Origin: Halosolutus amylolyticus
GTDB taxonomy: Archaea; Halobacteriota; Halobacteria; Halobacteriales; Natrialbaceae
Reading direction: 5' to 3'
NCBI RefSeq assembly: GCF_023566055.1
Contig: NZ_JALIQP010000008.1
Span: 1-64,000 of the forward strand
Length of the DNA: 64,000 nucleotides
In this document: positions 691-44,375 of the stretch, piece after piece
Layout of the letters: the number at the start of each line of letters is the position of its first letter
Position numbering within the stretch: position 1 is the first letter of the stretch
Notes under the pieces: model-generated
Told to the model about the DNA's origin: nothing
Seen by the model: only the letters and a program-made list of their open reading frames with translations
Database searches by the model: none
Program-made: the position numbers and the translations under genes

Positions 691-1898
691 GGTTCGGACT
701 CTCCGGTTTCGACGAGGACCTTCCGAACGACGTCGGGATCCTCCAGGAGTTGGTGTTCCGTGTAGCTTCCTTCGGCACTACCACCGCTCTGTCGTGACTG
801 TTCGATGATATCCAGAAACGCGTGTTCTTTCAGGAGATCACGAACACGGCGAAGCGAGAGCGAGTCGGACCCCTCCTGCCGACAGATCTCCTCGTAGACG
901 TCGTAGATCCGCGTCGTCCGGAAGCCGTCCTCGTCCGGCGTATTCAACGAGAGGACGGCGAGAGCCTGGAGCACGTACCGGGAGTGTGGCGTCGAACCGC
1001 GAATGAGTTCTCGGAACCGATCGGTCTCCGCCCGTTCTCGGGCCTGGACGACGAACTCCTCGCGAACGCGTTCGCTTCCGTTCGACTGGGCGATCTCCCC
1101 TGCGTACCGGAGGATGTCGATCGCCTTCCGGGCGTCGCCGTGTTCCCGGGCCGCGAGTGCGGCGGCGCGCGGGATTACCGACGGTTCGAGGACGTCGTCT
1201 TTGAACGCGTCACTGCGCGCCTGCATGATGTCCCGAAGCTGGTTTGCGTCGTACGGTGGGAAGACGAATTCGCGCTCGCAGAGACTCGATTTGACGCGCT
1301 CGTCCATCCGATCTTTGTACTTGATCTTGTTGCTGATCCCGATGACGCCGATTTTGCAGTGATCGAGTTTGCCGGCCTCGCCCGCGCGCGAAAGTTGCAT
1401 CAGAATGTCGTCGTCGTCGAGTTTGTCGACCTCGTCGAGAATGATCAGCACGACATCGTACTGCGAGTCGAGCACCGTCCAGAGCCGTTTGTAGTACGTC
1501 GACGTACTCAACCCCTTGTCGGGAATCTTGACGTCGGTGATCTCGGCGTCGTTTAGCGAGTGAGCGATCGTCTGGACCGCCTGGGTCTCGGTGCTGTCCT
1601 GGGCGCAGTCGACGTACGCGAACTCCGCCGTGACGCCCTCGTCCTTCGCGACCCGGACGAGCCGTTCGGAGATGTGCTTGGCACAGAGTGACTTTCCGGT
1701 TCCCGTCTTGCCGTAGATGAGGAGATTGCTCGGACTCTGCCCGAAGATCGCGGGGTTGACCGCGTTCGCGAGATCAGAGATTTCGTCGTCCCGGCCGACG
1801 ATACGACCTTCCTCGGGAAGATGATTGATCTCGAGTAGCTCTTTGTTTTCGAAGATCGGATCGTCTCGAGTGAAGAGGTCGTCGCCGGAACTCGACAT
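678..1898 (-). CDS. orc1: Orc1/Cdc6 family replication initiator
   Basis: This 406-aa protein is the archaeal origin-recognition and MCM-loading AAA+ ATPase. Walker A (GKTGTGKS) is at residues 63-70 and Walker B (LIILDEVDKL) at about 151-160. Arg-rich sensor regions follow, and the C-terminal ~90 residues form the winged-helix DNA-binding domain. The frame runs 95 codons further upstream, but that extension crosses two origin boxes and is Pro/His-rich, so the ATG giving MSSSGDD is chosen. The length is normal for haloarchaeal Orc1 (about 400 aa). One origin box sits 10 bp upstream of the ATG, which suggests autoregulation. The adjoining oriC makes this likely an origin-linked paralogue; which paralogue number it is cannot be told by eye. 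Confidence 0.95.
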   Translation of the reverse strand: MSSSGDDLFTRDDPIFENKELLEINHLPEEGRIVGRDDEISDLANAVNPAIFGQSPSNLLIYGKTGTGKSLCAKHISERLVRVAKDEGVTAEFAYVDCAQDSTETQAVQTIAHSLNDAEITDVKIPDKGLSTSTYYKRLWTVLDSQYDVVLIILDEVDKLDDDDILMQLSRAGEAGKLDHCKIGVIGISNKIKYKDRMDERVKSSLCEREFVFPPYDANQLRDIMQARSDAFKDDVLEPSVIPRAAALAAREHGDARKAIDILRYAGEIAQSNGSERVREEFVVQARERAETDRFRELIRGSTPHSRYVLQALAVLSLNTPDEDGFRTTRIYDVYEEICRQEGSDSLSLRRVRDLLKEHAFLDIIEQSRQSGGSAEGSYTEHQLLEDPDVVRKVLVETGESEPVDS

Positions 1899-1907
1899 TG
1901 GTCTCAG

Positions 1908-1926
1908 ACACCACGTTTCCGGTGAA
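1908..1926 (+). promoter_or_regulatory. ORB in the leader of orc1
   Basis: The box acaccacgtttccggtgaa lies 10 bp upstream of the orc1 start codon. A TATA-like ggttattaatg lies beyond it at about 1970-1980. Bound Orc1 would therefore sit across its own 5' leader. Confidence 0.75.
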
Positions 1927-2042
1927 ACGTCTTTACTGTTTGGACTTGCGTGGCGGCAGTCGGTGAAAAGGTTATTAATGGGAGTTTGAGGGCCTGAAAC
2001 GCGTTTGGGAACAACAGTGGGGATCGGTGGGATAGTTGGAGC

Positions 2043-2077
2043 ACACACACACCGGGTTTCCGGTGAAATGGGGTGAG
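2043..2077 (+). repeat. Left arm of a perfect 35-bp inverted repeat (extended ORB)
   Basis: A full ORB with a CA-dinucleotide run on one side and a G-string (TGGGG) on the other. Its reverse complement occurs without mismatch at 2784-2818, so the arms are 706 bp apart and flank the AT-rich stretch. Confidence 0.9.
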
Positions 2078-2111
2078 GGTGGGGGTGGTGCAGTTGAAGC
2101 GGGGGTCGTGA

Positions 2112-2130
2112 TTCAGCGGAAACGTGGTGT
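2112..2130 (-). repeat. ORB, variant
   Basis: A minus-orientation box, ttcagcggaaacgtggtgt, with one change in the TTCACCGGAAA core. It faces the left arm of the 35-bp inverted repeat. Confidence 0.6.
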
Positions 2131-2177
2131 GTGCCCGATCGGAGAGAAGGAAGATCTGATCGAAGAACACAGGTGTT

Positions 2178-2301
2178 AACCATAGAACTAGCAGATTTCG
2201 ACTATAGAACAGCGGGGTTCAACCATAGTACCCAGCAAACGTTGACCATAGATCTCGGTGAACATAGACCACAGAACCGGCGGACATAGACCACAGAACC
2301 G
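2178..2301. repeat. Irregularly spaced ACCATAGAAC-like repeats inside oriC
   Basis: Six related words (ccatagaac, ctatagaac, ccatagtac, ccatagatc and acatagacc twice) occur 15-25 bp apart. The last two belong to a direct repeat of about 21 bp (gacatagaccacagaaccg). They lie between the left ORBs and the AT-rich stretch. No known factor is recognised. Confidence 0.6.
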
Positions 2302-2440
2302 AATTATGCCAGGATCATCAACCGCGCAGAGGGGTCATACTGACGAAGATTGAGAAGACGCACTGAGGACCTTTCATGTCGGTGAGTGCGAACTCAGAAT
2401 TTCGGTAACCCGGTAACGAATATTCTTGAGCTCCGATCGA

Positions 2441-2455
2441 CGTTTCCGGTGGAAG
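2441..2455 (+). repeat. Mini-ORB at the edge of the AT-rich stretch
   Basis: Only the core cgtttccggtggaag is present, without the CACC arm. It abuts the presumed unwinding element. Confidence 0.5.
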
Positions 2456-2460
2456 CCTTT

Positions 2461-2551
2461 TGTCGACTACTGCTAGTAATTCTAATTCGATCTAGTCAAT
2501 GGACTATACTCCTTACTATGACTTATTAGTTACTATTCTGGTTTAGTTTCC
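2461..2551. other. Putative duplex unwinding element
   Basis: This ~90-bp stretch is markedly AT-rich compared with the GC-rich surroundings, with runs such as ctagtaattctaattcg and acttattagttactatt. It is flanked by inwardly facing ORBs, the expected place for origin melting. Confidence 0.65.
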
Positions 2552-2639
2552 CCTGGATCAGCAATGTGTTTTGATTCCTAGTCGGACACGGCTTCGGGAA
2601 TCCTGGCGCTTCAAATCTTCCGGACACCACCAAACTACT

Positions 2640-2770
2640 ATCCGTCCAGCTACCACCACCTGTCCAGCTACCACCACCCGTCCAGTCACCACCATTTCAC
2701 CGGAAACCCGGTGTGTGCGCGCGGCATCTTTTTCTTCACCAGTTCGAATTCTTCACCAGTTCGAATCGAG
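2640..2770. repeat. Short direct repeats in oriC
   Basis: A tgtccagctaccaccacc-like unit of about 18 bp is repeated three times (about 2640-2692). An 18-bp unit, ttcttcaccagttcgaat, is present twice (about 2731-2767). An ORB separates them at 2696-2714. Confidence 0.75.
2696..2714 (-). repeat. ORB on the right side of the origin
   Basis: Exact minus-orientation box ttcaccggaaacccggtgt, the nearest full box on the right side of the AT-rich stretch. Confidence 0.8.
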
Positions 2771-2783
2771 ACCATCCCACCTG

Positions 2784-2818
2784 CTCACCCCATTTCACCG
2801 GAAACCCGGTGTGTGTGT
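2784..2818 (-). repeat. Right arm of the perfect 35-bp inverted repeat (extended ORB)
   Basis: Exact reverse complement of 2043-2077, including the C-string (cccc) and the GT run. Conservation over 35 bp, beyond the 19-bp core, points to an extended initiator-binding site. Confidence 0.9.
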
Positions 2819-3122
2819 CTCCTCGAGTGACTGTCACAGTTTGGTATCTATCGTTCTTCAGTACCCGCGTTAAGTACCTCTTGGTTCCCATTGCTCGTTG
2901 TTTCGCAGTGGGGAACCAGAAACGCGACTCGTGTGGCCCGCCCAGTCGTTCAGATCGGATCGGTGACTGTCTCTTCGATGGGTACGGAACTCGGGCGAGA
3001 TTCGTTTCGACTCGACCTCTCTCTCTTTCGCTACTCTACTTCATCCGTCTTTCACTACTGACGAGTTCGTCGTAATCAGTCGCCCGTCGTAATCAACCGT
3101 CTGGATAGCGGAATCGTCCCAA

Positions 3123-3141
3123 TTCACCGGAAACGTAGTGT
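3123..3141 (-). repeat. ORB, distal right
   Basis: Box ttcaccggaaacgtagtgt, same orientation as the other right-side boxes. Confidence 0.7.
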
Positions 3142-3227
3142 GTGTCGATTACTAGTACACAGTTTTTCGAACTTTCCGGACTGTTTCGGGACCAACATTG
3201 TTCCAGACGTATTCGTTCTGCGTCGTA

Positions 3228-3246
3228 TTCACCGGAAATACGGTGT
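3228..3246 (-). repeat. ORB, distal right
   Basis: Box ttcaccggaaatacggtgt, one base off the consensus core. Confidence 0.65.
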
Positions 3247-3346
3247 GTGTTTCGAACCACCGGGAAGTGTGCGTTTCGAACGTCGCACCAATCCTCTCCG
3301 CCTATCGCTTCATCACCTCACCGTTCGCACCATCACTTCTTCTACG

Positions 3347-3391
3347 TTCACCGGAAAACCACTTCTTCTACGTTCACCGGAAACGTGGTGT
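3347..3391 (-). repeat. Half ORB followed by a full ORB
   Basis: A truncated box (ttcaccggaaaacc, 3347-3360) lies 12 bp before a full one (ttcaccggaaacgtggtgt, 3373-3391). Both are preceded by the same cttcttctacg word, so this looks like a small local duplication. Confidence 0.65.
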
Positions 3392-3424
3392 GTCCCTCCA
3401 CCTTAATCACGTGCTCCACCCTGG

Positions 3425-3506
3425 GGATGAAGAGATCGAGCATCGATTCTAGGGATGAAGAGATCGAGCATCGATTCTAGGGATGAAGAGACCGAGCATC
3501 GATTTG
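3425..3506. repeat. 28-bp tandem repeat, three copies
   Basis: Units at 3425-3452 and 3453-3480 are identical; the third (3481-3506) differs slightly. Each full unit contains a CTAG and two TCGA words. It lies between the last two ORBs, in non-coding DNA. Confidence 0.9.
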
Positions 3507-3634
3507 CCCTCTATCGAAACTTCCTGTGGAACCTTCCTCCGGGACTATCGAAACTTCTTGTGGGACCAGTGCTCCGGATGCAACCATCGATCGAGGGACC
3601 TGGAGACGAGGCTCCAGTAACGGCTGTCAAGCAC

Positions 3635-3653
3635 TTCACCGGAAACCCGGTGT
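3635..3653 (-). repeat. Rightmost ORB
   Basis: Exact box ttcaccggaaacccggtgt, about 1 kb from the AT-rich stretch. It marks the right edge of the recognisable origin. Confidence 0.75.
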
Positions 3654-3828
3654 GTCTTTCCCCGATACAGACGTCCGGAACCCCGTTGCCCCGTAGAGAA
3701 ATCCGGTCGCCGTGTCTCCGGCAGTCCGTGTCTCCGACAGTCCGTGTCTCCGACAGTGGGGAACCGCCGCAAACGTACTGGATCCGAGGCCCGTCTCCGC
3801 TACAACCGTCTACTCTCCGCCGTGGGAC

Positions 3829-5401: not shown

Positions 5402-5439
5402 TGTCGACGGATTGGAAGCGCCCGAAAAAACGCCTGTCG

Positions 5440-5676
5440 GTTCGATCGTCGAAAGCGAGGTGAAATCGCCTGACAGTTCGATCGTTGAAAGCGAGATAAA
5501 ATCGCCTGACAGTTCGATCGTTGAAAGCGAGATAAAATCGCCTGACAGTTCGATCGTTGAAAGCGAGATAAAATCGCCTGACAGTTCGATCGTTGAAAGC
5601 GAGATAAAATCGCCTGACAGTTCGATCGTTGAAAGCGAGATAAAATCGCCTGACAGTTCGATCGTTGAAAGCGAAC
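5440..5676. repeat. 36-bp tandem repeat between divergent metal/redox genes
   Basis: Copies start at 5440, 5476, 5512, 5548, 5584 and 5620 and are nearly identical (the first has three changes); a seventh partial copy is at 5656-5676. Every full copy contains gataaaatcgcc and tcgatcgttgaaa. The array fills the intergenic space between the P19-like gene and the SCO1 operon, so it probably holds the promoters or operators of one or both. It can be read in frame in several frames, but those peptides merely mirror the repeat. Confidence 0.95.
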
Positions 5677-23855: not shown

Positions 23856-25529
23856 TCAGTCCCCGGCGATCGCCGCCCGCAGTTTCGATCGGGTCGTCTC
23901 GCTCAGCGTGTACGTTCGTTCTGCGGGCCGGTCGAGGACGGACTCGGTACGCAGTTCCGAGAGGAGACTCTGGACGGCGACCGGCGACCGCCCGACGGTC
24001 CGTGCGACCGCTTCCGACTGGAGCGATCCCGATCGGGCGAGTTCGGTCACGACCTCTCGTGCGGTCGGTTCCGAACACTGCGAATTCTCGCACGCGCGCG
24101 TGATCCGCTCGTCGAGCCACGTCAGCCCGAATTCGTCGGGACCGTCCGATCCGGCGTCGGCGACGAGGATCTCACCGTCCGGCCCCAGTTCCGCCTCGCT
24201 CGTGTAACCGAACTCGTGATCGTCGCCGGCAGCCTGGACGATCCCGTCCTCGGCCGTATCGCGTTCGGAGTCGCCGCCGGCGTCACTCCTCGCGTCCTCG
24301 AGTCGGTTCCGGAGCCGATCGTTCTCGGCGCGCAGTCGATCGACCTCCGCTTCGAGGTCGTCGATCCGGTCGGCCCGATCGGCGAGTTCGTCTTCGAGTG
24401 CGTCCCGCTCGGCCGCCAGGTCGTCGCGCTCCGCCTCGAGTTCGGCCAGTTCCTCGTGGAGTCGCCGCCGATCCTCGTCGGTGTTCGGGAGGTGGGTCTG
24501 GACGGTTTCGGGCCGGGTCAGCGCGTCGGCCATCTGCTTGGCCGCACTCGAGACGTCCCGCGCGGATTCGAGTTCGTCCTCGAGGGTCTCGATGCGTTTT
24601 TCTTTCTTCTCGAGTTCGTTCTCCAGTTCGACGATCCGGTTTTCCTCCCGCTCCTTGCGCTCCGAGATGTCCTGGAGGTCGCCGACGAGGGCGTCGGAGA
24701 CGGACTTCAGTTCGGGCCGTTCGAAGTCGTCGAGCCCCGGCGTCGCCCCGGCGTCGAAGGTTCGCTTGCGGCGGAACTGCACCTTCCGGACGTCGAGTTC
24801 GGTCCAGTCGGTCTGGACGAACGCCTGACCGTCGTTCAGGTCCGAGACGACCTCCGAGTACTCGGTGTCGATGATTCGGCCGACGACTTTCGTGTCGTTG
24901 TCCCAGGTCAGCCGGTGCCAGACGAGCCAGTTCGCTTGCGTGATGAAGTCCTTCTTGACGTCCGCCGGCCGCTGGCTGATCCCCAGGATTCCGAGGCCGT
25001 GTTTCCGGCCGCGCTTGCTGATCTTGATCAGGAGTTTGCCCGTTTCGCCGACGCCACCCCCTTCCGGGATGTACTCGTGGACCTCCTCGACGATCAGCAG
25101 GAACGGCTTCTTCAGCTTCTTCTCCTTGACGAACAGCTGGCGGGCGATCTTCCGGAGGAGTTCGTCGGCCACCTCCTCGTCGAGGTAGCCGGAGACGTCG
25201 AGGATGACCGGGACGTTCTCCTCGAGCGCGAGGCTGGCCATCTGTTCGGCGTGTTCCGGCCCGATCTGGATGTCACACTCCTCGTCGGCTCCAGCGTGGA
25301 GCATCTCGTACTCCTCCTTGAGCCCGTAGTACTCGCCGTCGGTGTCGACGATCAGCAGGGGAAAGCCCGCGTCGAGCAACTCCTCGGCCAGGACGGAGGC
25401 CGTGTTCGACTTTCCCGACCCCGATTTCCCGGTGACGAACCCGCGACCGGTCAGGATCTCGACGACGGGCAGGTGCAGGTCGGTGCCGTCGGCGCTCTCG
25501 CCGACGTGAATCTCCCGCTGCTCGCTCAC
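23856..25529 (-). CDS. HerA-like ATPase (DUF87) with coiled coil and winged helix
   Basis: A 557-aa protein of the HerA/FtsK superfamily of hexameric DNA-pumping ATPases. The start HVGESADGTDLHLPV is a HAS-barrel-like segment. Walker A is GKSGSGKS (34-41). Walker B with the HerA hallmark is LLIVEEVHEYIP (about 144-155), and KHGLGILGISQRP is the sensor region. A long, heptad-rich coiled coil spans about 285-420 (LENELEKKEKRIETLEDEL). The last ~90 residues form a winged-helix domain (EVVTELARSGSLQSEAVARTVGRSP). HerA partners NurA in end resection, but no nurA is adjacent. Instead parA lies divergently across the 9-bp repeat array, so a role in DNA segregation or transport is attractive (inference). 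Confidence 0.85.
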   Translation of the reverse strand: MSEQREIHVGESADGTDLHLPVVEILTGRGFVTGKSGSGKSNTASVLAEELLDAGFPLLIVDTDGEYYGLKEEYEMLHAGADEECDIQIGPEHAEQMASLALEENVPVILDVSGYLDEEVADELLRKIARQLFVKEKKLKKPFLLIVEEVHEYIPEGGGVGETGKLLIKISKRGRKHGLGILGISQRPADVKKDFITQANWLVWHRLTWDNDTKVVGRIIDTEYSEVVSDLNDGQAFVQTDWTELDVRKVQFRRKRTFDAGATPGLDDFERPELKSVSDALVGDLQDISERKEREENRIVELENELEKKEKRIETLEDELESARDVSSAAKQMADALTRPETVQTHLPNTDEDRRRLHEELAELEAERDDLAAERDALEDELADRADRIDDLEAEVDRLRAENDRLRNRLEDARSDAGGDSERDTAEDGIVQAAGDDHEFGYTSEAELGPDGEILVADAGSDGPDEFGLTWLDERITRACENSQCSEPTAREVVTELARSGSLQSEAVARTVGRSPVAVQSLLSELRTESVLDRPAERTYTLSETTRSKLRAAIAGD

Positions 25530-25672
25530 CGATCACCCACCCCGGTTGGGCGCGACTTGTTCATGTTATCCATACAGTCCCATCACGTGACCTTGAATAT
25601 TGGCCCCGATTTCCCTCCGATCGTTCCGATATCGCGCCCGTCGATCGCCTTTCGACCCGGGAAACCAGTCCT

Positions 25673-25717
25673 TCACGGTTTGCACTTTCTACACCGTACA
25701 CACTGTGTAGAACGTTT
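25673..25717. repeat. 9-bp repeat run A (5 units)
   Basis: tcacggttt, gcactttct, acaccgtac, acactgtgt and agaacgttt follow each other without gaps. Confidence 0.75.
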
Positions 25718-25781
25718 CCGTCGCCTCGAGTTCTTCATCGCCGTTCGACGCCGACTCCTGACGGCCCGCGATGACGTTTAT

Positions 25782-25835
25782 ACACCGTGTTCACAGTCTG
25801 CGATGTTCACACAGTGTGAACTGTAGACACGTTTC
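25782..25835. repeat. 9-bp repeat run B (6 units)
   Basis: acaccgtgt, tcacagtct, gcgatgttc, acacagtgt, gaactgtag and acacgtttc are consecutive. Confidence 0.75.
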
Positions 25836-25898
25836 ATCCGATCCGCCACGTGTGGTCGTCATCCGAACACACGATTCCTTGCTCCCTCGTTGCGGCCC

Positions 25899-25943
25899 GA
25901 ACTGTGTAAAACGTATACACTGTCTGAACAGTGTATACGGTCC
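25899..25943. repeat. 9-bp repeat run C (5 units)
   Basis: gaactgtgt, aaaacgtat, acactgtct, gaacagtgt and atacggtcc are consecutive. Confidence 0.8.
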
Positions 25944-25991
25944 GATCGTTACCTCCGTCCCGGCCGATCGTCGCGACCCGGGTTCGGTGTC

Positions 25992-26090
25992 GAACGGTCT
26001 ACGATGCGTTCCCAGTGCAGGAATCCTACACGGTGTACACGGTGTAAACTGTCTATATGGTGTACGACGCTTGAACCGTAGGCACAGTGC
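25992..26090. repeat. 9-bp repeat run D (11 units)
   Basis: Eleven units in one register, with two identical acacggtgt units at 26028-26045. Units 2-4 are the most degenerate. Confidence 0.8.
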
Positions 26091-26146
26091 CATTCTCGAT
26101 CGCCGGTCGAATACGCCCGTTTCATGGCATCACTGGGGGGTTGTGT

Positions 26147-26209
26147 GGACGGTGTAGAATGTGTACACCGTCTATACTGTTTGAACGATGTAGGAGGTGT
26201 AGAAAGTTT
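26147..26209. repeat. 9-bp repeat run E (7 units)
   Basis: ggacggtgt, agaatgtgt, acaccgtct, atactgttt, gaacgatgt, aggaggtgt and agaaagttt in unbroken register. Confidence 0.8.
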
Positions 26210-26291
26210 CCGCTACTGTTAAGTTATCTCATGGGTATCGTAGACGTGTCAGTCGTCGCGTCCGACCGATCGAGCTGACAGCCGATCCAGG

Positions 26292-26462
26292 AGAATGTGC
26301 ACACCGTGTCAACGGTCCCGACGGCTGGGATCCAGAAGACTGTTCGAACTGTCCACGCGGAGCAGGCGGTCTCGACCGCTTGCACTTCCTAACACGTTCG
26401 AACATTGTGAACTGTTTAGACGGTTTAGGAGGCTTAGGAGGTTTAGACAGTCTCGACGTTTC
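26292..26462. repeat. 9-bp repeat run F (19 units)
   Basis: 171 bp equals exactly 19 units, from agaatgtgc to cgacgtttc. Some inner units are degenerate, but the register never slips. The last eight (gaacattgt onward) are rich in TTTAGAC/TTTAGGA. Confidence 0.8.
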
Positions 26463-26524
26463 AGTGGGGTGCGGCATGGTGGCGTCGCGGCCGGTTCCGA
26501 TCGCGATCGCGCTTCTGGGATTCA

Positions 26525-26749
26525 ACACGGTGTACACAGTATCTACAGTGTACAGCGTTTACACAGTGTAGATGGTTCACACGGGGACGACGGTCCGGGC
26601 CGCACGGGTGGCTCGCGAATCGGGCCCGGTCCACGCCGTGGACGCCGTGCACAACACCTGTACCTCGGAAACTGTTCGCACGGTCTACACAGTGTCGACT
26701 TTTTACACGACGAGCACGGTGGACGCAGTCTCGACGGTGGACGCGGCGG
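26525..26749. repeat. 9-bp repeat run G (25 units, leading up to parA)
   Basis: The first eight units (acacggtgt to cgacggtcc) and the last nine are clear; the centre (26597-26668) is degenerate but in register. The run ends at the Shine-Dalgarno of parA. It is offset by one base relative to run F. Confidence 0.7.
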
Positions 26750-26761
26750 AGGTGATTCAAC

Positions 26762-27589
26762 GTGACAGACCCACGCGCCGTCAGCGTCGCCCTGCAGAAG
26801 GGCGGCGTTGGCAAGACGACCCTCGCGATCAACCTCGCGGAACGGCTCGCCAACCGATCGAACGACGTGTTGTTGGTCGATCTCGACCAGCAGGGCAACG
26901 CCACGGAGGGCGTCGGCCTGAGCGACGCCTACACGGGCGAGGTCCACATCGGCGACGTCCTCGAGGACGGCTCCGACGTGACCCTCGGGGACGTGGTCCG
27001 ATCGACGGACGCGTTCGACGTTCTGCCGGCCCACGAGGACTTAGATAGCGTCGAGAACAGCATCCGGAGCGCGACCTTCGGCGAACTCTGGATCAGAAAC
27101 GAGATCGTCGACCCGGTGCTCGGCGACACCTACGACTACGTGGTCGTCGACTCTCCGCCGAACCTGGGACCGCTCGCGGACGCCTCGCTGATCTCGACCC
27201 AGAACGTCATCGTCCCGCTGCGGATGAGCGAACCCAGCGTGAGCGGCTTCGAACGGATGTACACCCAGCAGATCGGCCCGATCCGCAAGGAGATCGACCT
27301 CGACATCCTCGCGATCGTCCCGAACTCGCTGTCGGGCGACAACGAGGAAAAGCGGATCATCGGCGACCTCGAAGCGTCGCAGTTCGGGGAGTATCTCCCC
27401 GAGTTCGGTCGATCGGCTCACTTCGACGATCCGGATTCGCCTGGCCCGGGCCTGCGCGAACGGATCGCGTTCCGCCGGGCGTGGCGCGAGGGCGTCCCGC
27501 TCGCGGAGTACGATCCGGACAGCGACATGCTCGAACGACTCGACGAACTGGCCGCGATCGTCGAGCGTGGAGGTGTCGACGATGCCTGA
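26762..27589 (+). CDS. parA: ParA/Soj-family partition ATPase
   Basis: A 275-aa deviant-Walker ATPase. KGGVGKTT at 13-20 has the signature first lysine. LLVDLDQQGNATEGVG is the A' motif and DYVVVDSPPNLGPLADASL the Walker B region. ParA proteins bind DNA non-specifically as ATP dimers and are released by a centromere-binding partner, moving chromosome or plasmid DNA. There is no N-terminal HTH, as in type Ib plasmid ParA (ParF, delta) and chromosomal Soj. The GTG at 26762 is fixed by ggaggtgat at 26748-26756. It overlaps the next gene by 8 bp and lies immediately downstream of the 9-bp array, which probably serves as its operator and centromere. Confidence 0.9.
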   Translation: MTDPRAVSVALQKGGVGKTTLAINLAERLANRSNDVLLVDLDQQGNATEGVGLSDAYTGEVHIGDVLEDGSDVTLGDVVRSTDAFDVLPAHEDLDSVENSIRSATFGELWIRNEIVDPVLGDTYDYVVVDSPPNLGPLADASLISTQNVIVPLRMSEPSVSGFERMYTQQIGPIRKEIDLDILAIVPNSLSGDNEEKRIIGDLEASQFGEYLPEFGRSAHFDDPDSPGPGLRERIAFRRAWREGVPLAEYDPDSDMLERLDELAAIVERGGVDDA

Positions 27590-28064
27590 CGACAACCGGT
27601 TCGCGGGCCTGAGCGAGGCGGTCGGGGAGGACGGCGAGACGAGTCCGGCGGACGGCGAGGCCGAGAACGAGACGGGGGTGGACGACGAAATCGACGAACC
27701 GGGGACCGGGTCGGACGCATCGGCACCGGAGACGGACGCGACGACCGATGCCGAGACCGTCCTGGAGACCGGGACCGGTGACGATCGGGACGGCGATGAC
27801 GGTGGGTCCGATTCCGCGTCCGATGCGTCCGACGGGGATCCGACTGCGTTCGCGTTCGACGAGACGACGAAGAAGACGGTCTACGTTCGCCCCGGGACGC
27901 TCGACGAACTCGAGGACGCCCGCGCGCTGGTCGACGCCCAGTTGCGAACCCAGCACGACGTGCGGGACCTGACGGGTCGGGAGTTCTACGACGCGGCCTT
28001 CCGACTCGCCGCCGCCGATACGGACGGCCTGATCGACGAGATTCTGGCGGCTCGAGACGAGTAG
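27582..28064 (+). CDS. Small acidic protein with C-terminal ribbon-helix-helix-like domain (candidate centromere-binding protein)
   Basis: A 160-aa protein. Residues 1 to about 95 are an unstructured Asp/Glu/Thr/Gly-rich tail. Residues about 98-160 look folded: a short strand KKTVYVR, then helices TLDELEDARALVDAQL and TGREFYDAAFRLA, the strand-helix-helix layout of RHH repressors. Type Ib partition systems pair ParA with such a dimeric RHH protein (ParG, omega) that binds short tandem repeats and stimulates ParA through its flexible N-terminus. The 8-bp overlap with parA and the adjacent 9-bp array fit that role. The RHH call is by eye. The ATG at 27582 is preferred to a GTG at 27567; ggaggtg is at 27569-27575. 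Confidence 0.7.
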   Translation: MPDDNRFAGLSEAVGEDGETSPADGEAENETGVDDEIDEPGTGSDASAPETDATTDAETVLETGTGDDRDGDDGGSDSASDASDGDPTAFAFDETTKKTVYVRPGTLDELEDARALVDAQLRTQHDVRDLTGREFYDAAFRLAAADTDGLIDEILAARDE

Positions 28065-28635: not shown

Positions 28636-28965
28636 ATGAACAGTACCAGTACCGTCGTCACCGCGACGCTCACCGTTCGCGTCCCGTTGCGCGCATCCGG
28701 TGACCTCGCGGACGGCGCACGACGTATCGTCGAACGAACCGACGCGGTCGATCGACTCGAACGCGCGACCGTCCGGGGCGTCTCGCCCGGCCTGAACGAC
28801 ACGACCGTCGATCTGCACGCCCGGGTCGCACTCGACGGCACCGATCGAGGTGCCGACGAGGCGGTCCTGCGACGCGACCTCGAGCGCGGGGCCGGCGTCG
28901 TCAGCGTCGACGCCGTCGAGTCGGCCGACGCCGAGACGCAACCGATCGAGGCGGAAGTCGGCTAG
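28636..28965 (+). CDS. Conserved haloarchaeal hypothetical protein
   Basis: A 109-aa acidic protein, MNSTSTVVTATLTVRVPL onward. The alternation of a strand, helix (DGARRIVERTDAVDRLERA), strands (TTVDLHARVAL) and helix suggests a small alpha/beta sandwich, perhaps a BON- or KH-like fold, but no family is recognised with certainty. No signal or membrane segment. Its stop codon overlaps that of the convergent helicase gene by 4 bp. The longer upstream frame is Arg-rich, so the ATG at 28636 is used. Confidence 0.65.
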   Translation: MNSTSTVVTATLTVRVPLRASGDLADGARRIVERTDAVDRLERATVRGVSPGLNDTTVDLHARVALDGTDRGADEAVLRRDLERGAGVVSVDAVESADAETQPIEAEVG

Positions 28966-30884
28966 CGGTCCTCGCGATCGCCGTCGCGGTCTACGGTTTC
29001 TTCGCGGACCGTGATCCCCTTGCGCCCGAGATGCTGGAGCTGGCGGCGTGCGAAGTCCTCCTCGCGGGTGCCACGCGTCGCGAGGACGTACACGAGCGCG
29101 CCGCCGGCGGGGCGCATCGTTCGGCCGGCGCGCTGGGTGCCCTGTCGGCGCGACCCGCCGAGTCCGGAGGCGACGATCGCCAGGTCGGCGGTCGGCAGGT
29201 CGATCCCCTCGTCGCCGACCCGCGAGACGACGAGCAGGTCGCGTTCGGTCCGGCGGAACTCGTCGAGCAAGCGTCGCCGCTCGTGGTGTGGCGTCTCCCC
29301 GCTGAGGAAAGGGACGTCGAGGGCGGCCGCGATGTCCCGGCCCTGTTCGAGGTAGTCGACGAAGACGAGCGCCTTCGAGTCGGGGTGGGCCGACAGCAGG
29401 TATCTCACTTCGTCGACCTTGCCCCGGTTCCGGGCGGCGATCCGGTACTTTTCGCGGCCCTCCGCCGACGCGTAGGCGTTGGCCTGTTCCTCGTCGCCCC
29501 ACGGGACGTACCGGATCTCGAGTTCCGGTTCGGCGACGAAGCCGGCCTCGAACAGCGCCTCCCAGTCGGTGCCGATCGGCGGGCCGACGAGGGTGAAGAT
29601 CTCCTGCTGGCGATCGTCCTCCCGGATCGGACTCGCGGAGAGGCCGAGTCGGTGCCGCGACTGGAGGTGGGTGCTCCGCCGGTAGACGTCCGAGGGGACG
29701 TGCTGGCACTCGTCGAAGATCACGAGGCCCCACTCGCGGTCGTCGAACAGCGATCGGTGTCGATCCATCCCCGCGATCTGGTAGGTCGCGATCGTCACGG
29801 GGCGGACCTCCTTCCGGCCGCCGTGGTACTGGCCGATCTGGTGGGGTTCGAGCGAGGTGAAGTCGGCGATCGTCTCGGCCCACTGTCGGGCCAGGTCCCG
29901 ACTCGGCACGAGCACGAGCGTCTCGCCCTCGACGTGGGCCATCGCGCCCATGGCCGCGACGGTCTTGCCGCTGCCCGGCGGGCCGACGAAGACGCCCTCG
30001 CCCGCCTCGGCGAACCGATCGACCCACGTCCGCTGGTAGTCCCGGAGCCGAACCTCGAGGTCGATCGGGAGCGCCTCGCCGGACTCCAGGTCCCGGTGGT
30101 CCTGGACCGGGTAGCCCGCCTCGTAGAGGATCCGCTTGATCGCGGCTTCCGCTCCCTCGCGAACCCAGTCCTCCGTGTCGGAGATCGGCGCGTGGACGTG
30201 CTCCTCGTCGAGTTTCTGGCGGGCGACGTTCCCCATGATCTCGGCACTCCTGGCCTTGAGGACGGTGTAGCCCTCCTCGTGGGTCGTCAGTCGGAACTGG
30301 TGGGCCCGGTCCCACTGGCTCTGGACCCAGTCCTCGAGCGCGTCCGATCGCTCTCCGATCGCCTGCCGCATCGTTCGACGGAGGGCGTCGAAGCTGTCGT
30401 GGGGCGTCCCCCAGACGTCCTCGGGCCTGACGACGTAGCGGTAGCCGTCGTCGCCGTTGGCGTCCGCGAGGTGGGCGAACTGGGAGAGTTGCGCGCGCGT
30501 AAACTGGGCGGGTCGATCGACGACGATCTCGCGGCGCTTCGGGAACACGACCACGCGCTCCCGATCGGTCAGGTCCTCCAGTTCGCTGGGGTACCAGACG
30601 ACGGGATCGGTCCCGACCGAGAGCCGCTGGAGGTCGCCGCCGTCGGCGAGGTTCTCGAGCGCCTCGCTGGCCGCCTCGTGGGTGAGATCGAGCGCGCGGG
30701 AGACGGCGGCCGCGGTCAGTACCGGTCGGCCGACCTCCTGGGAGGCGTCGTGAAAGTCCGCGATCGAGAGCCGATCGGTCGCGTCGCTGGCCTCGGTCTC
30801 CTCGGATGACGCTTCCCTGCTCGCTGACTGCTCGCTGTCGGGCGATTCGTCGGGATCGGCTGGCGAGGACCGGTCGTCAGTCAC
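28962..30884 (-). CDS. XPB/Rad25-type DEAD/DEAH-box DNA helicase
   Basis: A 640-aa superfamily 2 helicase. The acidic N-terminal tail is followed by a winged-helix-like segment (SRALDLTHEAASEALENLADGGDLQRL) and a damage-recognition-like part. RecA domain 1 has Walker A GPPGSGKT (about 301-308) and DECQ (about 391-394). Domain 2 carries LVFVDYLEQGRDIAAAL and QRAGRTMRPAG. Archaeal XPB-like proteins act in DNA repair and strand opening. The chosen start is GTG at 30884. The first ATG upstream (30962) lies inside a palindromic repeat element and would add a 26-residue Pro/Ala stretch, so it is less likely. Confidence 0.87.
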   Translation of the reverse strand: MTDDRSSPADPDESPDSEQSASREASSEETEASDATDRLSIADFHDASQEVGRPVLTAAAVSRALDLTHEAASEALENLADGGDLQRLSVGTDPVVWYPSELEDLTDRERVVVFPKRREIVVDRPAQFTRAQLSQFAHLADANGDDGYRYVVRPEDVWGTPHDSFDALRRTMRQAIGERSDALEDWVQSQWDRAHQFRLTTHEEGYTVLKARSAEIMGNVARQKLDEEHVHAPISDTEDWVREGAEAAIKRILYEAGYPVQDHRDLESGEALPIDLEVRLRDYQRTWVDRFAEAGEGVFVGPPGSGKTVAAMGAMAHVEGETLVLVPSRDLARQWAETIADFTSLEPHQIGQYHGGRKEVRPVTIATYQIAGMDRHRSLFDDREWGLVIFDECQHVPSDVYRRSTHLQSRHRLGLSASPIREDDRQQEIFTLVGPPIGTDWEALFEAGFVAEPELEIRYVPWGDEEQANAYASAEGREKYRIAARNRGKVDEVRYLLSAHPDSKALVFVDYLEQGRDIAAALDVPFLSGETPHHERRRLLDEFRRTERDLLVVSRVGDEGIDLPTADLAIVASGLGGSRRQGTQRAGRTMRPAGGALVYVLATRGTREEDFARRQLQHLGRKGITVREETVDRDGDREDR

Positions 30885-30950
30885 TGCCGAGGCTAACGGC
30901 GGTGGGGGTAAACCGATTTCGCTCGCCGGTACGGGAGCGGTCGCTCGGGG

Positions 30951-31034
30951 TATAGTAGCCACTGAAAGTCAATGCACACCTGATCGCAGGACGGCTGTGC
31001 GATCAGTGTGTAAATCGTTTCAGTAGCTACTATA
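30951..31034. repeat. 84-bp palindromic element, copy 2
   Basis: Ends tatagtagccactgaaa and ttcagtagctactata; inner arms gcacacctgatcgca / tgcgatcagtgtgt. The complete element folds as a hairpin with a short GGCTG-type loop. It lies upstream of the helicase gene. Confidence 0.9.
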
Positions 31035-44136: not shown

Positions 44137-44330
44137 GGGTACCACTCGCTCGCGCTCGATATGGGTGTTACGATTTTGGAAACCGCGATTTCTGAAATCG
44201 TAATTTCTTCTCTGTGGGGCCGGGTTCTGGGACAGCTACCAGGCATCGTTCGACGACGCCCGACTGTAAATTCGTCTCCGAGACACCCGAGACACGACGA
44301 ACGCCGGCGGTGACGGACCGTCACGCTTGT

Positions 44331-44375
44331 AGAACGTTTAGAATGTGTAGACTGTGTAGGTCGTTTAGAACGTCG
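44331..44375. repeat. 9-bp repeat run H, outlying array
   Basis: agaacgttt, agaatgtgt, agactgtgt, aggtcgttt and agaacgtcg are consecutive and match the units of run E and run F in the parA locus 18 kb away. It lies in the 365-bp space between the AAA-DUF234 start and the phosphodiesterase stop (44137-44501); the rest of that space holds no gene. Confidence 0.8.

Follow-up and report, generated by a model that had tools for sequence, protein, structure and literature searches.

The stretch of DNA analysed here (the window) corresponds to positions 1–64,000 of a contig of 230,102 bases from the 4.59-Mb haloarchaeal genome of Halosolutus amylolyticus, and it carries a putative partition system, in which a ParA-like ATPase gene and an overlapping small gene lie beside a 1.1-kb array of 9-bp repeats. 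The first and last 649 bases of the contig are identical (exact terminal redundancy), and the contig is therefore a circle of ~229.45 kb; a ParA of 94% identity is encoded on a 200,542-bp plasmid of Halosolutus gelatinilyticus. The elements of the locus, in window coordinates, are the following:

23856–25529, minus strand: HerA-like DUF87 ATPase (DUF87, 5.1e-12), a neighbour and probably not a component of the system
25673–26749: main 9-bp array, candidate centromere and operator, with ~70 units in 11 runs and the core A-N-A-C-N-G-T-N-T, based on periodicity, segmentation and conservation upstream of orthologues
26762–27589, plus strand: parA, a Walker ATPase of 275 aa with no N-terminal helix-turn-helix (HTH) domain (Pfam AAA_31, 8.6e-35)
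27582–28064, plus strand: candidate ribbon-helix-helix (RHH)-like centromere-binding protein of 160 aa, based on its position beside parA in all carriers, an alignment and a low-confidence model

Across the array, base agreement at lag 9 amounts to 0.395, and at lags 18, 27 and 36 to 0.39, 0.36 and 0.36, compared with ~0.25 at other lags. In 500 first-order Markov simulations with the same dinucleotide make-up, the lag-9 self-match was 0.254 ± 0.014, with a maximum of 0.293, and it does not exceed 0.370 in any other 1.1-kb stretch of the window. Segmentation by dynamic programming with a learnt weight matrix reaches a score of 423, against a maximum of 168 for shuffled sequence, and divides the array into 11 runs of 5, 6, 5, 3, 7, 8, 4, 14, 8, 4 and 9 contiguous units (73 in total). 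The strongest positions of the unit, which is its own reverse complement, are A3, C4, G6 and T7, and the last units lie no more than 13 bp from the start of parA. A chance or compositional period is ruled out by the Markov simulations, the shuffled segmentation and a pattern search with a backward control. The preliminary description of this DNA had reported a strict 9-bp array at these positions, between a divergent HerA-like gene and parA with its 160-aa neighbour; lag-9 self-match and segmentation bear out the array, and the placement is confirmed. When closely related species are compared in pairs, 7.3% of the core bases differ, against 14.2% at the wobble positions (2, 5 and 8; p = 6e-4) and 15.2% in the sequence between units (p = 4e-7), and this slower change of the core would fit selection on binding.

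The identity of the ATPase is clear from its sequence: its KGGVGKT motif lies ~12 residues from the start, and Soj, 7dut (labelled Soj, presumably SegA) and Delta (2oze) are among the solved chains closest to it. Like the motors of type Ib systems, it is a ParA-family Walker ATPase without an N-terminal HTH domain, and tandem short repeats upstream of parA, another type Ib trait, are likewise present, here as a candidate centromere. The partner gene overlaps the end of parA by 8 nt. In the alignment of its orthologues, the 160-aa protein is composed of an invariant N-terminal NRFAGL motif, an acidic, variable linker and a C-terminal strand-helix-helix region, and a single-sequence AlphaFold2 model of its C-terminal 79 residues shows strands followed by two helices at low confidence (predicted local distance difference test, pLDDT, 66). 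An RHH fold, DNA binding, stimulation of ParA and a role in segregation are inferred.

The distribution of these parts was surveyed in 125 genomes of Natrialbaceae and, at the class level, in 391 genomes. A ParA orthologue (80–93%) occurs in 27 of the family genomes, the window's own included, and the partner gene directly follows parA in every one of these carriers. Wherever enough sequence is readable, the carriers show a 9-bp period upstream of parA (in G100, the array spans contig ends and is seen from the herA side), and an independent pattern search yields 7–25 matches in each of the 27 and 0–3 in nearly all other genomes, with a backward control near zero. The preliminary description had proposed that ParA, an RHH-like protein and the array work like a type Ib system, and that orthologous loci be checked for the 9-bp periodicity; the step recurs there, which supports the proposal. 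At the class level, this ParA clade (clade I) is found in 68 genomes from 22 genera and five families. On plasmids of Haloferax gibbonsii, H. lucentense, H. mediterranei and H. larsenii, ParA is 67–70% identical, the array separates msrA from parA, the overlap of parA with the partner gene is again 8 nt, and orc1, but no herA, is nearby; 9-bp arrays also lie upstream of ParA orthologues of 67–72% identity on Haloferax and Salinibaculum plasmids. A second ParA clade (40–42%), which is found on chromosomes as well as plasmids, has its own partner gene and 9-bp arrays, and a third set (47–53%) has neither partner gene nor array. A search for related loci in genome contigs and viral contigs returned distant ParAs only, with no orthologues in viral contigs.

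The HerA-like ATPase had been viewed in the preliminary description as a third component, a pump that would form one segregation or chromosome-organising machine on the array together with ParA and the RHH protein, and whose gene would accordingly co-occur with them. Its DUF87/HerA core (Pfam) and coiled coil stand, and the winged helix ascribed to it has no Pfam match among the matches listed. Within Natrialbaceae the genes do keep company, as herA adjoins parA in 25 of the 27 carriers and shares its replicon in all 27; in the remaining two (G001 and G006), where the genes are 54 and 72 kb apart, the array remains at parA, and herA has a small array of its own immediately upstream. This last arrangement is also what a rearrangement through the array would leave behind, and HerA-like proteins occur in 120 of the 125 family genomes, with or without clade-I ParA. 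No array is found at the HerA-like gene in the parA-less genomes examined, and no herA lies near the system in Haloferax or in the other clade-I and clade-II loci examined outside Natrialbaceae, which makes a three-component machine very unlikely and contradicts the expected co-occurrence. Given the distribution of arrays, partner and herA across genomes, the module consists of ParA, its partner and the array, with HerA as a neighbour; HerA as the partner of ParA was rejected on the same distribution. The module is also adjoined by a gene for an XPB-like helicase (28962–30962, minus strand), and plasmid pHTUR04 has a DEAD/DEAH helicase in the same place.

As a large repeat array in an intergenic space, the array might be taken for an iteron-type replication origin, and several deposited circular records begin in or near it. 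The replicon, however, has an initiator gene and a repeat cluster elsewhere:

747–1856, minus strand: Orc1/Cdc6 initiator of the replicon (TIGR02928, 443 bits)
1905–3657: probable replication origin, with at least nine origin recognition box (ORB)-like elements (TTCACCGGAAACCCGGTGTGTG) in both orientations, adjoining orc1 on its upstream side, identified by repeat analysis

The ORB-like elements, which are accompanied by several other short tandem repeats, probably represent, together with Orc1, the form expected of a haloarchaeal origin. Because the replicon has its own Orc1 and ORB-like cluster, 22 kb from the main array, the array is not the origin, and in four other replicons Orc1 likewise lies tens of kilobases from the main array; an iteron origin is almost certainly the wrong explanation, and the array was rejected as a replication origin on the basis of the ORB-like cluster. 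At 5426–5674 of the window, a 36-bp unit (AAAATCGCCTGACAGTTCGATCGTTGAAAGCGAGAT) is repeated in tandem 6.9 times at 96%, without spacers.

The 9-bp units are not confined to the main array, as the replicon carries two satellite arrays of about five to seven units each, one of which lies in the window and the other at 212845–212898:

44322–44375: satellite array of ~5–6 units, intergenic, with the same gene neighbour as a satellite of Halosolutus gelatinilyticus

Both had been overlooked in the preliminary description. Four other replicons were scanned over all or almost all of their length, and every one has a satellite, with reversed-sequence controls near zero; six of seven named plasmids have at least one in the pattern scan, the satellites predicted on pHME505 of H. 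mediterranei lie at 188295, 235237, 388679 and 430530, and further genomes show satellites on the contig that encodes ParA. Some positions are conserved: the satellites of G022, G100 and G101, which represent two genera, have gene neighbours in common and lie 8–19 kb from Orc1, and that of pHTUR04 lies 5 kb from orc1. That nearly all replicons examined carry satellites of their own, some of them at conserved positions, is a new observation of this analysis, as are the link between unit core and partner strand and the congener without the system, both described below. The satellite at 212845–212898 lies near an msrA gene; as the Haloferax main array stands between msrA and parA, this may be a remnant of an earlier gene order.

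A genome of the same genus (G016) shows related DNA in a chromosomal state. One block of its 5.06-Mb chromosome matches most of the replicon in collinear order at ~85–90% identity; the match extends from ~81 kb past the contig end at 230 kb and stops at position 25605 of the replicon (25.6 kb), which is the edge of the array. Clade-I ParA, the partner and the array are absent from G016 genome-wide, and a 360-kb stretch of its chromosome has no satellite and no match to this Orc1. The direction may have been integration or the reverse; in this one case, the system appears to go with the independent state. Three further clade-I parA-partner pairs (L378, L379 and L380, of G158, G181 and G268) stand on chromosome-sized contigs with a short array, perhaps decaying after integration.

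These observations bear on two other roles for the repeats. The array could have no function beyond that of an operator, for a parA-rhh operon that controls its own expression and for herA, with the satellites as operators of a small regulon; the omega and ParG systems autoregulate, units lie within 13 bp of the parA start, and the satellites are intergenic. This explanation is nonetheless distinctly unlikely, since ~70 units over 1.1 kb are far beyond what an operator needs, the units vanish with the system from chromosomal DNA although the genes flanking the 212.8-kb satellite remain, and satellite neighbours differ between lineages. Alternatively, the RHH protein might mainly organise or compact the replicon by bridging the main and satellite arrays, with ParA-driven movement being secondary, and satellites do occur on most replicons examined; SegB, moreover, binds many scattered sites and has been linked to chromosome organisation (PMC12284271). 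One to four satellites would be few for compaction, the system is tied to ParA, and it is missing from G016, in which most of the replicon is part of the chromosome, so that compaction as the main function is unlikely.

While the 9-bp step is fixed, the core of the unit changes between systems. Clade-I arrays are of the form ACAC-N-GTGT and second-clade arrays of the form ACCTATTGY, and scoring every locus with both matrices separates the two array types cleanly. The array type follows the predicted DNA-reading strand of the partner, and this holds at every locus where both are readable: strands of the form KK/QK/AK-T/S-V/I-YVR occur with type-I units and RQR/K-PLYAR with type-II units. The N-terminal motif of the partner goes with ParA instead, as is expected of a ParA contact: it is NRFAGL in clade I and NPFDDL in clade II. 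Two natural swaps separate the strand from ParA. In G341, a clade-I ParA (69%) is accompanied by a partner with a clade-I-like N-terminus, SRFNGI, and the strand QRPLYAR, and the units are of the CCTATT type (type II). The Halomarina BCD28 plasmid is the weaker case, with a second-clade ParA (45%), the N-terminus NPFADL, the strand HSVYVR and a short array that scores as type I (18, compared with 4 in shuffles, and 0 for type II). The swaps are the best evidence, at the sequence level, that the core tracks the strand of the partner and not ParA. Judged by eye, the further strands QRPFYAR and QKAVYPR pair with further words.

Taken as a whole, the locus is very probably a partition (segregation) system of the circular 229-kb haloarchaeal replicon, most likely of a type Ib-like ParA/RHH kind. 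In such a system, dimers of the RHH-like 160-aa protein would bind to neighbouring 9-bp units and cover contiguous runs, so that a partition complex would form at the main array and at the satellites of the same replicon. The NRFAGL motif, carried on the flexible acidic linker, would stimulate the ATPase of nucleoid-bound ParA, and a ParA gradient would move the copies of the replicon apart, while the array beside parA would double as the operator of the parA-rhh operon. The core of the unit would be the address of the replicon, read by the RHH strand, and other ParA/RHH pairs in the same cells would keep the 9-bp step and have a different core.

Several observations weigh against this interpretation. 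The RHH fold of the partner has no sequence match in Pfam, NCBIfam or the PDB, and Foldseek matches to its model, at a pLDDT of 66, are meaningless and give no fold match. An operator role alone would also account for conservation beside parA. Some lineages carry the clade-I system on a chromosome-sized contig with a short array only, and G016 is a single comparison. Moreover, arrays and ParA do not always coincide: a clade-I satellite of G018 (C4, 136078–136129) is carried by a contig separate from the ParA replicon; G008, which lacks clade-I ParA, has two near-perfect orphan satellites (C2, 909024–909066 and 1089479–1089514); and in G090 an array adjoins herA (C134, 265–1109) with no clade-I ParA found, in an assembly of 220 contigs in which the contig begins at that point.

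The system shares features with several known partition systems. ParF/ParG of TP228 is a type Ib system in which a ParA without an HTH domain is followed directly by the gene for the RHH partner, with the centromere upstream of parA; ParG binds degenerate tetramer boxes, and its mobile N-terminal tail has been proposed to stimulate the ATPase. The haloarchaeal locus resembles it in its ParA without an HTH domain, the partner directly downstream and the array upstream of parA, and differs in its strict 9-bp step over 1.1 kb, its satellites, its longer acidic linker and the conserved NRFAGL motif. The AspA-ParB-ParA system of the Sulfolobus plasmid pNOB8 is composed of three proteins. It is likewise an archaeal plasmid partition system with a ParA-family ATPase (PMC5120986), in contrast to which two proteins are found here. 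The delta/omega system of pSM19035 is similar in its small ParA, its separately encoded dimeric RHH partner, contiguous short repeats at promoters that act as parS, and several parS sites per plasmid (PMC9499535). At least four contiguous repeats are needed there for ParA activation (PMC9499535), and most runs of the main array have 4–14 units and most satellites at least four. The pSM19035 sites consist of 7–10 copies of the 7-bp repeat WATCACW, whereas the units here are pseudo-palindromic, 9 bp long and ~70 in number at the main site, and the partner has no detectable sequence homology to that of pSM19035. SegAB of Sulfolobales (PMC12284271; PMC5120986) is also an archaeal ParA/RHH pair (the RHH fold here being inferred) with overlapping genes and with sites both upstream of the operon and scattered. 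SegB sites, however, are isolated 13-bp palindromes (TCTAGASTCTAGA), mostly inside genes, unlike the tandem arrays here, which are intergenic where checked and on their own replicon, and when homology to SegB was addressed by searching PDB chains with a profile of the aligned partners, there was no match. Neither the omega nor the SegB repeat type is present, as matches are at chance level (one match to a WATCACW double heptad with two mismatches; nine SegB motifs compared with 8.85 expected). The literature search turned up no description of 9-bp centromere arrays in haloarchaea, which is weak evidence of novelty, as most subscription journals lay outside the search.

A review of the field counts the segregation of several replicons in halophilic archaea and the form of archaeal centromeres among its open questions (PMC5120986). 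For these questions, the locus provides a defined candidate centromere together with its candidate reader and motor, and the comparison adds natural swaps of specificity and a chromosomal relative that is free of the system. Haloferax is generally regarded as genetically tractable. Orthologous systems occur in this genus, including on pHME505 of H. mediterranei, which makes the idea directly testable, and the 9-bp step with its changeable core offers a simple system for studying RHH recognition. With about an even chance, haloarchaea use an addressable centromere code, in which each large replicon would have a ParA/RHH pair of its own, with a 9-bp dialect that differs between systems and is found at a single main site a kilobase long and at a small number of satellites, sometimes near the origin. 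The RHH strand alone would set the address, so that the replicons of a polyploid cell would be sorted independently, dialects would change by strand exchange, and the module would be lost when a replicon joins the chromosome.

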